Under the pieces are notes generated by a model. That model saw nothing but the letters and a program-made list of their open reading frames with translations, made no database searches and was not told the DNA's origin. This document shows positions 32,953-37,398 of a stretch of 64,000 nt of DNA, piece by piece. This DNA is from Clostridiales bacterium (GTDB taxonomy: Bacteria > Bacillota > Clostridia > Oscillospirales > CAG-272), in the NCBI GenBank assembly GCA_022791195.1, contig JAAVYP010000065.1:1-64000 (forward strand), read 5' to 3'. The position numbers and the translations under genes are program-made. Numbering within the stretch: the stretch's first letter is position 1; every line of letters starts with the position of its first letter.

Positions 32953-33498
32953 ATGTTCATGAAACAGATGGATAAGGATAAACAAGAAAAACAGGCTGCC
33001 TTTCGCTGGCTGCTGATTCCGGCCGGGGCGTTTGCTTGCGCTGTGATACTGAATTTGTTTGTGCTGATTTGCGCGATTGTTCCTTCAGAATCAATGGAAA
33101 GCACAATCAGGGAGGGATCCCTGATTGTTGCTTTTCGGCTTGCTTATGTTAATCATGAGCCGGATCGGGGTGATGTTGTGCTTTTTCGGCATGAGGAATT
33201 AGGCCGTTCATTGCTTGTAAAGCGCATTATAGGCCTGCCGGGTGAAACATTTGAAATACGAGAGGGCTGCATCTATATCAACGGCGAAAAAGCGCCGTTT
33301 GAAGAAGCGTATGCTGTCGGCGAGATGACGGATGATTTCGGCCCGCTTGTGATTCCAGCCGATCAGTTTATTGTATTGGGCGATAATCGGTCGGCTTCTC
33401 ACGATTCACGTTATTGGCAGCAGCCTTTTGTAGAGCGGCAGGAGATTGAGGCCAAGGCGGAGTGGATTTTGTGGCCGTTGCCTCGAAAAATTCGATAA
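32953..33498 (+). CDS. lepB: Signal peptidase I
   Basis: This 181-residue type I signal peptidase has one N-terminal membrane helix, the catalytic Ser in VPSESMESTI, the general-base Lys in LLVKRIIGLPGETF and the conserved GDNRSASHDSRYW box. It cleaves signal peptides from Sec-exported proteins outside the membrane. The start is uncertain between ATG 32953 and 32968; neither has a strong SD. Its presence inside a polymer operon, between a small membrane protein and a YidC fusion, is unusual and suggests operon-specific processing or simply shared expression of export factors. Confidence 0.92.
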   Translation: MFMKQMDKDKQEKQAAFRWLLIPAGAFACAVILNLFVLICAIVPSESMESTIREGSLIVAFRLAYVNHEPDRGDVVLFRHEELGRSLLVKRIIGLPGETFEIREGCIYINGEKAPFEEAYAVGEMTDDFGPLVIPADQFIVLGDNRSASHDSRYWQQPFVERQEIEAKAEWILWPLPRKIR

Positions 33499-33530
33499 AA
33501 AGTTGTTTAAAATACTCTTTGGAGAGTCAA

Positions 33531-35672
33531 ATGGAAATTATAAATACAATCGTAGGTACCCCTTTGGGTTATCTCATGTGGCTTTGCTACAAGCTTTTTC
33601 ATGATTATGGCGTCGCCATTATCTTTTTTACCTTGTTAACCAAGGTAGTGATGTTCCCCATCTCTCTGCTGGTGCAGAAAAATTCAATTAAGATGGTGAA
33701 AATGAAGCCTGAGCTTGATGCGCTGAAATATCAGTATGTGGATGATCAGGATGCCTTTATTGATGCGCAGACTGCTTTATATAAGCGGGAAAAATACAGC
33801 CCGATGGCGGGTGTGTGGCCGCTGCTGCTTCAATTGCCAATTATTTTTGGCTTGATTGATGTGGTCTATAAACCGTTAAAGCATCTTCTGCATATGCCGT
33901 CTGATGTGATTAACGCCTTTACCCAAAAGGCCAGCGAAATTTTGGGTGTGACCGATTTAGGCTCTTCGCCTCAGCTGCGCGTGGTTGAGCTTTTGTCACA
34001 GAATGAAAATATACCGAAATTTATGGAACTGCAAGGTACCCTTGACGGTGTTGACGTAAACGGAGCGATTGAAACAATTCGCGGCGTCAATATGAACTTC
34101 TTGGGTATTAATTTGGCCGCAACGCCCAGCGTGACAGTGCTCAACCTTCTGTTCCTGGTGCCGGTGCTGGCCGGACTCAGCGCGCTGATTATGTGTGTGA
34201 TTCAAAACCGGATCAACGTGCTGCAAATTGAGCAGAACAAATTATCCCAATGGGGCATGACCCTGTTTATGATTGCTTTTTCGACTTATTTTGCCTTTAT
34301 CGTGCCGGCTGGTGTTGGTCTTTACTGGATGTGGGGCAACCTGTTCTCCATCGGCGTTATGTATTTGGTCAATGTCATTTACAATCCTAAAAAATATATA
34401 GACTATGCAGCCTTGGCCGATTTAAAAAAGCAAACGGCGCTGGATAAGGAAAAGACAAAGCGCAATAAAAAAATGGCCAAAAAATATTATAAGGCCTTTT
34501 GCCGTCCTGAAAATATAGAAAAAATGAAGCTGATGTTTTATGCAGAGGGCGGCGGCTATTATAAGTATTTCCAGAATATCATCGAGGCGCTGCTGCAAAA
34601 AACAACAAAGTTAAAAATTCATTATGTGACCAGTGACCCGCAGGATCCTATATTGAATACCAAGGAAGAGCGGATTATTCCTTACTATGTGGATGAAAAT
34701 CGCTTGATTTCGCTTATGATGAAGGTAGAAGCGAAAATGGTGGTCATGACCACTCCTGATTTGGAAAAATACCACATTAAACGCTCCCGCGTTCGCAAGG
34801 ACGTTGAGTATGTGTATGTAGATCACGGCTGTTCCAGCCTGAACCTGACTTATCGTACCGGTGCGTTTGATTATTTTGACACCATCTTTGCAGTCAGCGA
34901 TCAGCAGGCAAGAGAGGTGCGCGCGATTGAACAGCTGCGCGGTACACCCGAGAAAAAAATTGTAGAGTGCGGCTACGGGCTGCTCGATAATATGATCGAG
35001 GCATACAAAGCGCTGCCGCCGGCTGAAAACGAAAAGAAAACCATTTTGATTGCGCCCTCCTGGCAGTATGATAACATCATGGACAGCTGCTTGGATGATC
35101 TGGTGGAGGGACTCACCGGTTCAGGTTATCGGATTGTGATTCGCCCCCATCCCCAGTATGTGCGGCGTTTCCCGCTGAAAATCAAAGAAATTTTGAATCA
35201 GTATGCCGATCGTTTCAGCGATGATTTCATCATCGAGACTGATTTTTCGTCTAATGTGACGGTGTATACGGCTGATCTTTTGATTACCGACTGGTCGGCT
35301 ATTTCCTTTGAATTCAGTTTTACGACCAATAAGCCCACCTTGTTTATCAATACCAAGATGAAGGTGGTTAATAAAGCTTATAAGAAGATTGATATTGAGC
35401 CTTTTGATATCACGGCCAGAGAGCAGGTGGGCCGCTCGATAGACAAGGACGAGGTAAAGAATATTGCCGCGGTAGCGGATGATTTGCTGAATAACCAGAG
35501 CCTGTATGCCGCAGGAATCGAAAAGCTGAAAAATGAGTATTTCTATCATTTGGGGCATAGCGGCGAAGCTGGTGCTGATTATATCATCAGCCGTTTAAGC
35601 AAGAAAAAGAAACATGCAGAACCGGTGTCAGAGCCTACAGCGGAACAAAACAAAGATCATTCCGATGAGTAA
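33531..35672 (+). CDS. Fusion of YidC/Oxa1 insertase and CDP-glycerol glycerophosphotransferase
   Basis: This 713-residue protein has two unrelated domains. Residues ~1-280 are an Oxa1/YidC insertase with IIFFTLLTKVVMFPISLLVQ (Lys38 in place of the usual groove Arg), WPLLLQLPIIFGLIDVVY and AFIVPAGVGLYWMWGNLFSI. After a basic linker (~285-310), residues ~320-680 are a TagB/TagF-like glycerophosphotransferase with VDHGCSSLNLTYRTGA, LIAPSWQYDN, RPHPQYVRR and LITDWSAISFEFSFTTN. The tail is charged. ATG 33531 has GGAGAG upstream; the frame extends back into lepB but without an SD. The second domain transfers glycerol phosphate from CDP-glycerol in teichoic acid synthesis. The insertase part may anchor it, help assemble membrane partners, or keep insertase activity. 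A reading-frame error is unlikely because the linker is continuous. Confidence 0.9.
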   Translation: MEIINTIVGTPLGYLMWLCYKLFHDYGVAIIFFTLLTKVVMFPISLLVQKNSIKMVKMKPELDALKYQYVDDQDAFIDAQTALYKREKYSPMAGVWPLLLQLPIIFGLIDVVYKPLKHLLHMPSDVINAFTQKASEILGVTDLGSSPQLRVVELLSQNENIPKFMELQGTLDGVDVNGAIETIRGVNMNFLGINLAATPSVTVLNLLFLVPVLAGLSALIMCVIQNRINVLQIEQNKLSQWGMTLFMIAFSTYFAFIVPAGVGLYWMWGNLFSIGVMYLVNVIYNPKKYIDYAALADLKKQTALDKEKTKRNKKMAKKYYKAFCRPENIEKMKLMFYAEGGGYYKYFQNIIEALLQKTTKLKIHYVTSDPQDPILNTKEERIIPYYVDENRLISLMMKVEAKMVVMTTPDLEKYHIKRSRVRKDVEYVYVDHGCSSLNLTYRTGAFDYFDTIFAVSDQQAREVRAIEQLRGTPEKKIVECGYGLLDNMIEAYKALPPAENEKKTILIAPSWQYDNIMDSCLDDLVEGLTGSGYRIVIRPHPQYVRRFPLKIKEILNQYADRFSDDFIIETDFSSNVTVYTADLLITDWSAISFEFSFTTNKPTLFINTKMKVVNKAYKKIDIEPFDITAREQVGRSIDKDEVKNIAAVADDLLNNQSLYAAGIEKLKNEYFYHLGHSGEAGADYIISRLSKKKKHAEPVSEPTAEQNKDHSDE

Positions 35673-36113: not shown

Positions 36114-36187
36114 TATGCATTTTCATTTTTTAGCGGGAAAGAGGGATATTTTTTTATAATTGACTTTTTTCCGGGTCTGACAGTATA

Positions 36188-36216
36188 TTGTCAATCCAAA
36201 AACTTTGTGATACAAT
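36188..36216 (+). promoter_or_regulatory. Upstream promoter (P1) of the permuted binding-protein gene
   Basis: TTGTCA (36188-36193), 17 bases, TACAAT (36211-36216). It would give a ~240-base leader carrying several hairpins. Confidence 0.7.
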
Positions 36217-36258
36217 AAGAAAAAGCCTAACGACTTTATATTAGAAAATTTAACTGGC

Positions 36259-36319
36259 CGTGCAAATGGCACGACCTGCCGGTTAAACCGGCACTGCCTA
36301 ACTTCCGGTTTCGCTGGAA
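36259..36319 (+). other. Three consecutive hairpins in the binding-protein leader
   Basis: CGTGC-AAATG-GCACG (36259-36273), TGCCGG-TTAAA-CCGGCA (36277-36293) and TTCC...GGAA (36303-36319) stand in a row between promoters P1 and P2. No RNA family is recognised. Confidence 0.55.
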
Positions 36320-36327
36320 TGTCGTAC

Positions 36328-36356
36328 TTTGGATTTGTTTAAATGCCGATGATAAT
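36328..36356 (+). promoter_or_regulatory. Downstream promoter (P2) of the permuted binding-protein gene
   Basis: TTTGGA (36328-36333), 17 bases, GATAAT (36351-36356). The palindrome at 36360-36382 would be at +1. Confidence 0.55.
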
Positions 36357-36359
36357 GCA

Positions 36360-36382
36360 GAAGCAAATCGAAGATTTGCTTC
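36360..36382 (+). repeat. Perfect palindrome at P2 start, same family as secA and metK sites
   Basis: GAAGCAAATC-GAA-GATTTGCTTC differs from the secA copy only in the three loop bases. It follows the P2 -10 by three bases. Confidence 0.7.
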
Positions 36383-36464
36383 GTGAGTGAGATTGATTTT
36401 GAATTCATGTAACTTGTGTTTTATTTTCGTATAAAAATAGAAAAATGATTGGAGAGAAAGCGGC

Positions 36465-37313
36465 ATGAAAATGAGAAAAATAGTTCCATGGTTGCTTTTG
36501 GCGGCGATATGCCTGACCGCTTGTGCGAATACCGAATACGGGGTGGAAACACCCGATGCATATGTGTCACTTTGCGCTGAAATCGAGGTTGACGTGTACT
36601 ATGCTGGCGCTTTTCGCAAGGATGATCTGACACTGGCCGCAGCAGTGGATGAGGAAATTGCCGCTATGATCGATGATGGCACAGCCAAGCAAATCAGCGA
36701 AAACTGGTTTGGCGAAGATTTCATTGTCTATGAAACGTCTGCGCCGCTGCCATCATCAGATGATGATTCGCTCAGAACCGTGCAGGAGACGGGAACGTTA
36801 ACGGTGGGCTATATATCGGATGATTACCCTATGTTGTTTGAAGATGCTAACGCCAATGTACAGGGCTTCGATGCGGATTTGCTGGAAGAAGCGGCCCGAC
36901 GGCTGGGACTCACGGTGACATATGAAAAGGTGAGCGCCGAAAACCAAGAAACGAAGCTATCCGACGGCCAAATTGACACGATTTTCGGCGGGTTAGCTGT
37001 GACTGAGGAAAAAAGAGATACATTAACACTTACAAGAAATTATTTCAAAACCTCATTTTCCTTGTTGACCTTAGCATCACAGGCAAATGACAAGCAAAAT
37101 CTCTCTGATTTTGCCGGACAAAAAATCGGCGCTTGCCAAGGTTCGGCTGCTTATGATTATTTGCTCTCGCAGGGATTTGCGGCCGAAAATATCACGGCGT
37201 ATACAAGCGCAGCCTATGGATATTATCGGCTGCGGGAAAAAAAGGTGGCGGCCTTGTTGGTGGATACACCCTTTGCCGATTGGGTGCAAAGGGGTAAAAT
37301 GAACACACGATAA
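36465..37313 (+). CDS. Family-3 solute-binding lipoprotein with circularly permuted order
   Basis: This 282-residue exported lipoprotein has a signal ending at lipobox LTAC (Cys near residue 20). The mature part has the blocks of an amino-acid-type (SBP_bac_3) binding protein, but in rotated order. Residues ~41-85 (YYAGAFRKDDLTLAAAVDEE to ISENWFGED) are what normally ends such a protein. After a Ser/Asp linker, residues ~105-280 start with the usual first strand (TLTVGYISDDYPMLFED), run through VQGFDADLLEEAARRLGL and GQIDTIFGGLAVTEEKRDTL, and stop at VAALLVDTPFADWVQRG, just before the block found at the N-terminus. The frame is intact, with GGAGAG SD, two promoters and a terminator. No transporter genes are adjacent, so it may be an orphan receptor. 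Confidence 0.8.
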   Translation: MKMRKIVPWLLLAAICLTACANTEYGVETPDAYVSLCAEIEVDVYYAGAFRKDDLTLAAAVDEEIAAMIDDGTAKQISENWFGEDFIVYETSAPLPSSDDDSLRTVQETGTLTVGYISDDYPMLFEDANANVQGFDADLLEEAARRLGLTVTYEKVSAENQETKLSDGQIDTIFGGLAVTEEKRDTLTLTRNYFKTSFSLLTLASQANDKQNLSDFAGQKIGACQGSAAYDYLLSQGFAAENITAYTSAAYGYYRLREKKVAALLVDTPFADWVQRGKMNTR

Positions 37314-37350: not shown

Positions 37351-37351
37351 T

Positions 37352-37386
37352 AAAAAACGGTGCTGATTTCCTCAGCACCGTTTTTT
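37352..37386. terminator. Bidirectional terminator
   Basis: AAAAAACGGTGCTGA pairs with TCAGCACCGTTTTTT around TTTCC, between the binding-protein and histidine-kinase genes. Confidence 0.93.
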
Positions 37387-37398
37387 ATTTAGCTTTGT

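Follow-up and report, generated by a model that had tools for sequence, protein, structure and literature searches.

Circular permutants of family-3 solute-binding lipoproteins and their several separate origins in Clostridia

A gene of a Clostridiales bacterium (CAG-272; assembly GCA_022791195.1, contig JAAVYP010000065.1) encodes what looks like a family-3 solute-binding protein (SBP) with its segments in the wrong order, which raises the question of whether such a protein is a genuine, circularly permuted binding protein or the remainder of something larger. We refer to the whole stretch of DNA that was analysed (positions 1–64,000 of the contig, forward strand; 64,000 nucleotides) as the window, and to the product of this gene as the window SBP. 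An earlier note on the same DNA had claimed that a block typical of the C-terminus of the family (FRKDD, a helix, then ISENWFGED) stands ahead of the strand TLTVGY, and had read this as circular permutation. We consider it very probable that the window SBP is indeed an amino-acid-binding lipoprotein of family 3 (type II, SBP_bac_3) that has undergone genuine circular permutation and whose order is conserved, with a fold that is predicted and ligand binding that is inferred. The features of the locus are as follows (type 1 is one of three permutation types described below).

36160–36216, + strand: overlapping promoter-like sites TTGACT-18-TATATT and TTGTCA-17-TACAAT (consensus matches only, not evidence of function)
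36451–36456, + strand: Shine-Dalgarno-like GGAGAG with the ATG 8 bases on (read from the sequence)
36465–37313, + strand: window SBP, 282 aa, read as a circularly permuted SBP_bac_3 lipoprotein with type-1 permutation (open reading frame and profile)
36465–36521, + strand: signal peptide, residues 1–19 (read from the sequence; low-confidence helix 7–19 in the AlphaFold2 model)
36522–36524, + strand: lipobox cysteine C20 (LTA-C), invariant in the type-1 alignment
36555–36734, + strand: moved C-terminal block, residues 31–90 (FRKDD...ISENWFGED; profile positions 197–255, 4ohn 202–252)
36735–36764, + strand: Ser/Asp-rich linker between the old C- and N-termini, residues 91–100 (lowest conservation between congeners, 50% identity)
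36765–37283, + strand: remaining domain in canonical order, residues 101–273 (profile positions 16–190; Foldseek match to 4ohn)
37284–37313, + strand: short new C-terminus, residues 274–282, and stop codon (open reading frame; type-1 relatives end likewise at profile 186–198)
37351–37387, + strand: strong intrinsic-terminator-like hairpin, 16-pair stem and T tail (read from the sequence; resemblance only)

Order of segments and predicted fold

We compared the window SBP with a reference profile built from nine of its canonical relatives. Residues 31–90 matched profile positions 197–255 and residues 98–273 matched positions 16–190, i.e., in reversed order. In its native order the best single profile match scored 103.5 bits; with the two parts swapped (a check proposed in the earlier note) there was one match over positions 17–255, scoring 147.8 bits. 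Swapping gave a single full-length match in all ten permuted proteins tested, and the best single matches of five arbitrary rotations per protein were all lower than that of the swapped order. The order is also reversed relative to the solved structure 4ohn, a histidine-bound amino-acid SBP (PDB), whose residues 9–185 correspond to residues 101–273 of the window SBP and residues 202–252 to residues 39–90. Profile, swap and 4ohn thus agree in placing the C-terminal block ahead of TLTVGY, and the Ser/Asp-rich linker that had been proposed to join the old ends was found between the two parts, at their least conserved point.

Pfam detected SBP_bac_3 (PF00497) in two stretches (87.2 bits against a curated cut-off of 26.4) and beyond it only a sub-threshold Lig_chan-Glu_bd match; with its two stretches reversed, the window SBP does not meet the collinear N-to-C order of the family. 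Its best solved relatives are 4ohn, 3hv1, AncQR (4zv1) and Thermotoga maritima ArgBP (6svf), and the best matches in PDB sequence searches with permuted profiles break at the cut and are not collinear. Judged by sequence, the window SBP belongs to a permuted SBP_bac_3 subfamily that is homologous to, but not collinear with, the family, and the permutation explains why domain libraries score such proteins as partial or as two broken matches.

Export and lipid anchoring of the window SBP are predicted from its signal peptide and lipobox, lipidation itself being inferred. Of the expression signals reported earlier, the open frame and the signal peptide stand, whereas the Shine-Dalgarno sequence, terminator and promoters amount to resemblances only. 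Between the promoter-like sites and the gene lies a leader of about 250 bases (36217–36464) that has inverted repeats and no Rfam match above the gathering score. A separate open reading frame at 33462–35672 (+ strand) appears by eye to fuse a YidC/Oxa1-like membrane insertase sequence to a CDP-glycerol glycerophosphotransferase-like domain; its congener counterpart is a similar open reading frame at L025 2993–5146.

The AlphaFold2 model of the window SBP, made from an alignment of only ten rows, had a pLDDT of 86.4 and a pTM of 0.80, with pLDDT values of 82–96 in the moved block and a confident fold across residues 34–90. Within the block, the model places a strand (34–46), which we take to be the last lobe-2 strand together with the second crossover, and two helices (55–71 and 73–82), presumably the C-terminal helices (lobes being assigned from general knowledge of LAO and GlnBP). 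From this correspondence it follows that the new ends lie in a lobe-2 loop and that both crossovers are retained. The termini had been placed between the crossover and the last lobe segment; they lie instead inside lobe 2, just before the strand that enters the second crossover. The remaining part (residues 101–273) comprises lobe 1 (from TLTVGY), the first crossover and lobe 2 as far as LLVDTPFADW. The best PDB match found by Foldseek, again 4ohn, covered this non-moved part (E 3e-11, 187 columns, rmsd 1.9 Å; TM 0.68 on the target). Foldseek aligns chains in sequential order and can therefore match only the part that was not moved, in keeping with the partial coverage of the target, and there is no superposition of the moved block onto 4ohn. 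The structure prediction and superposition that had been suggested as a check therefore returned a confident fold and a close fit of the remaining two-lobed part to an amino-acid SBP, while the packing of the moved block in its canonical C-terminal place is inferred from model confidence and secondary structure. With that qualification, a two-lobed type II fold is predicted; the idea that permutation keeps the fold and moves the lipid anchor is supported by prediction alone for the fold and by inference for the shift of the anchor from lobe 1 to lobe 2.

Conservation, operon context and alternative readings

A congener (G001) carries the same order at 74% identity. Both parts of the window SBP are under purifying selection: between the two congeners, dN/dS is 0.109 for the moved block and 0.099 for the remaining part (0.107 overall), and the linker alone is loosely conserved. 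When relatives, the order and the class were searched and loci classified, the type-1 order was found in 45 proteins from 12 families, each encoded by a single gene, and the conserved order, the profile reversal and the swap result jointly support circular permutation. Counting all types, 62 permuted proteins were recovered besides the window SBP (63 loci in all). Two genomes have two type-1 permuted paralogues each: in G215 (L064 5983–6870 and L085 5995–6834) one paralogue is part of a transporter operon and the other an orphan, and in G446 (L091 and L118) neither has a permease in the stretch examined.

A HisM-type permease gene lies directly downstream of the permuted SBP gene at 50 of the 63 loci (type 1, 32/45; type 2, 12/12; type 3, 6/6), and a GlnQ-type ATPase gene nearly always comes next, from which we infer that the permuted SBPs are the binding proteins of polar-amino-acid ABC importers. 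Amino-acid specificity could not be taken from leader RNAs, as Rfam detected no T-box or riboswitch directly ahead of any permuted SBP gene (a T-box in L027 precedes a trpB-like gene, and another, in L072, is about 2 kb further upstream). In the ligand pocket, most type-1 relatives retain the counterparts of LAO D11, W52 and R77, and a majority has that of D161; all four are mostly present in the clade nearest to the window SBP.

Could the window gene nevertheless be a deletion remnant of a tandem SBP gene, joining the tail of one domain to the head of the next without a functional single domain? Tandem SBPs do exist in related bacteria (L080, L127), and they are also the likely intermediates of permutation itself. 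However, the two parts of the window SBP complement each other to a full domain, hardly overlapping and leaving hardly any gap (profile positions 16–190 and 197–255). Moreover, dozens of species share the order, with dN/dS of about 0.1 between congeners and an operon context in relatives, and the two-domain source that the earlier note had named as grounds for refutation was absent from the 97 genomes nearest to the window gene. We thus find the remnant very improbable for the window gene, and conservation, operon context and dN/dS rule out a remnant or pseudogene for the family. An artefact of assembly or frame in a metagenome bin would have to be considered given that G000 and many relatives are fragmented genomes; its chance is negligible, and it can be ruled out, since the permuted order recurs in independent genomes, one of them a single contig of 2.55 Mb (G380, with type-2 L078), and the frames are open and under purifying selection. 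It is also unlikely, though less decidedly so, that the window SBP forms a domain-swapped dimer, in which the N-terminal block of one chain completes the other protomer. In T. maritima ArgBP, a homologue among our PDB matches, the C-terminal helix is exchanged between protomers; the joining linker, at about 27 residues, is long and flexible enough to permit such a dimer, but it is equally long enough for closure within one chain, and the monomer model has a pTM of 0.80, although neither point is a direct test.

A further alternative concerns the window copy alone, which may no longer be an import SBP but a sensor or scaffold lipoprotein that has kept only the fold. Neither a permease nor an ATPase gene adjoins the SBP gene, which is an orphan like its two congeners; their genus clade sits on a long branch (1.1–1.7 changes per column), and most pocket residues are lost (D11 to I, W52 to A, N69 to G, S72 to A and R77 to K in LAO numbering). 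A histidine kinase/response regulator pair lies downstream, convergent with the SBP gene, but the opposite strand encodes it and the congener has a 2191-aa gene in between. Amino-acid binding remains possible, given a lysine at the carboxylate site and the conserved D161. We regard the loss of an import role as a real possibility, albeit not the one we favour. Since the gene is an orphan and most pocket contacts are gone, amino-acid binding by this copy is not assured and what it does is uncertain: the probable alternatives, between which we cannot choose, are service to one of three other amino-acid importers whose genes lie elsewhere in the genome, each with its own SBP, and a role as surface sensor or scavenger.

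Three cut points and several origins

Permuted proteins ended at three different places in the domain: at profile positions 186–198 in type 1 (45 rows including the window SBP, one shortened by a contig end), 119–129 in type 2 (10 tree rows plus L130 and L131 from the phylum search) and 149–153 in type 3 (6 rows). Mapped on the window model, these cuts fall in three separate lobe-2 loops, namely after the last lobe-2 helix (type 1), after the first lobe-2 strand (type 2) and after the helix following the second lobe-2 strand (type 3). Type-2 permutants (L072 2986–3774, L073 2553–3389, L077 6001–6840, L078 5662–6504, L103 5022–5849, L109–L113, L130 and L131) have the second half of lobe 2 and the C-terminal block first and lobe 1 last, and end past the first lobe-2 strand. 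Their profile is reversed relative to T. maritima ArgBP (positions 164–261 match chain 5–103, and 27–137 match chain 120–225); the AlphaFold2 model of one of them, L073, had a pLDDT of 48 (four-row alignment), too low to be informative. Type-3 permutants (L074 5698–6621, L075 5773–6618 and L114–L117) form one well-supported clade.

Trees were built after each protein had been rotated to canonical order, in versions of 85 and 93 rows. Parsimony required 8 changes between canonical and permuted order and 11 among the four states on the 85-row tree (9 and 12, respectively, on the 93-row tree), and well-supported branches of the 85-row tree alone force 5 canonical/permuted changes. Constraining all type-1 rows together made the tree 267 log-likelihood units worse (AU p 1.3e-5), and doing so with all type-2 rows made it 172 units worse (AU p 4e-5), which rules out (p < 1e-4) a single origin for all type-1 or for all type-2 permutants. 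The permutants are thus polyphyletic, and Clostridia have permuted SBP_bac_3 several separate times. Parsimony does not distinguish gain from reversal; a reversal would itself be a permutation. On the 85-row tree, permuted L012 is sister to canonical L047/L048, and type-2 L103 to canonical L015/L019/L021/L023 (support 100/99 in both cases). The operon of L012 (L032) and that of canonical L047 (L129) are orthologous, with SBPs 59%, permeases 70% and ATPases 68% identical, and form the clearest before-and-after operon pair.

A permuted SBP was present in at least about 28 of 394 genomes of the order and at least about 27 of 391 of the class. A sample of 359 genomes of the phylum, mostly from other classes, gave no additional type-1 case when searched with the type-1 profile at E <= 1e-50; it yielded two type-2 cases (L130 and L131).

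Anchor position, origin and relation to known systems

We propose that the segment of the window SBP made up of the last strand of lobe 2, the second crossover and both C-terminal helices came to stand first, and that a flexible linker now connects the old ends. The protein would still close on an amino-acid-like ligand as a normal Venus flytrap (there are no binding data) and, in relatives, would pass it to the neighbouring permease, with the N-terminal lipid anchor leaving lobe 1 for a short tether on lobe 2; all three steps are inferred. The median tether from the lipobox cysteine to the first strand is 7 residues in type 1, 14 in type 2 and 12.5 in type 3, against 32.5 in canonical relatives, and about 27 residues connect the old ends in each of the three types. 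In all types, the long-tethered anchor of lobe 1 is thus replaced by a shorter-tethered one on lobe 2; that this re-siting is the benefit selected for is our inference.

Most likely, the SBP gene was first duplicated in tandem and the pair was then trimmed at both ends. The joining linker is similar in length to the old tether, and this and the existence of tandem SBP arrays are consistent with such a course. In L080, two SBPs are fused to a permease, and L127 (620–4291; G060:C5) encodes a 1223-aa protein in which half an SBP (profile 122–248), three complete SBPs and the complementary half (25–119) are fused to an ABC permease, so that the array begins and ends at the type-2 cut point. GlnPQ-type transporters, with tandem SBP_bac_3 domains fused to a permease, correspond to the intermediates expected for permutation; the window SBP differs from them in being a single free lipoprotein domain of 282 aa that covers one domain's profile positions and has no transmembrane part.

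The window SBP shares with the canonical SBP_bac_3 lipoproteins its sequence, its predicted bilobed fold and its lipobox, and most of its relatives also share the SBP-permease-ATPase operon; it differs in having the C-terminal 55–60 residues first, a lobe-2 anchor with a short tether and a diverged pocket. A natural circular permutation of a lipid-anchored SBP has been described in TpMglB-2 (Tp0684) of Treponema pallidum and its relatives, sugar-binding lipoproteins for which a "Type Ic/Cluster Bc" was proposed (PMC4990184). The class occurs in spirochaetes and Gram-positive bacteria, ligand binding and closure are retained, and its authors suggest a link with membrane anchoring (PMC4990184). 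TpMglB-2 has a type I/cluster B sugar-binding fold with a rearranged N lobe and an added fourth crossover (PMC4990184), whereas the window family is type II, with all cuts in lobe 2 and both crossovers kept. Membership of the TpMglB-2 class is ruled out for the window SBP, given its Pfam assignment to SBP_bac_3 and its top PDB matches to type II amino-acid SBPs. The passages of that account that were read report neither several cut points nor recurrent origins (PMC4990184). In the open-access literature, to which our search was limited, we found no report of family-3 permutants or of recurrent SBP permutation, although a report may have been missed. The earlier statement that no described family has this arrangement therefore holds, as far as we could find, for family 3, but not for SBPs in general, where TpMglB-2 with its type I fold came before (PMC4990184).

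Our analysis adds to the earlier note that the order is conserved, usually in transporter operons, that there are two further cut points and that the permutation arose several times independently. To our knowledge, a natural circular permutation is as a rule an old event that happened only once. In the present case, a single widespread fold offers three cut points, several independent origins in related bacteria and an orthologous operon pair before and after the change. The repeated origins and this operon pair therefore open the origin of permutants, the bias towards one lobe and the effects of anchor point and length to experiment: whether permutants arise by tandem duplication and trimming, why the new ends are confined to one lobe, and whether delivery to the ABC importer depends on the site and length of lipid anchoring. 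Permuted binding proteins for biosensors are made by hand, and natural permutants are templates for their design. Whether Clostridia recurrently and independently permute family-3 SBPs, with new ends always in lobe-2 loops, because the result is short-tether anchoring by lobe 2 beside the permease is a question on which we see the chances as even. If true, one of the commonest proteins of nutrient uptake would have been re-wired adaptively time and again, with the canonical operon L129 and the permuted operon L032 directly comparable.
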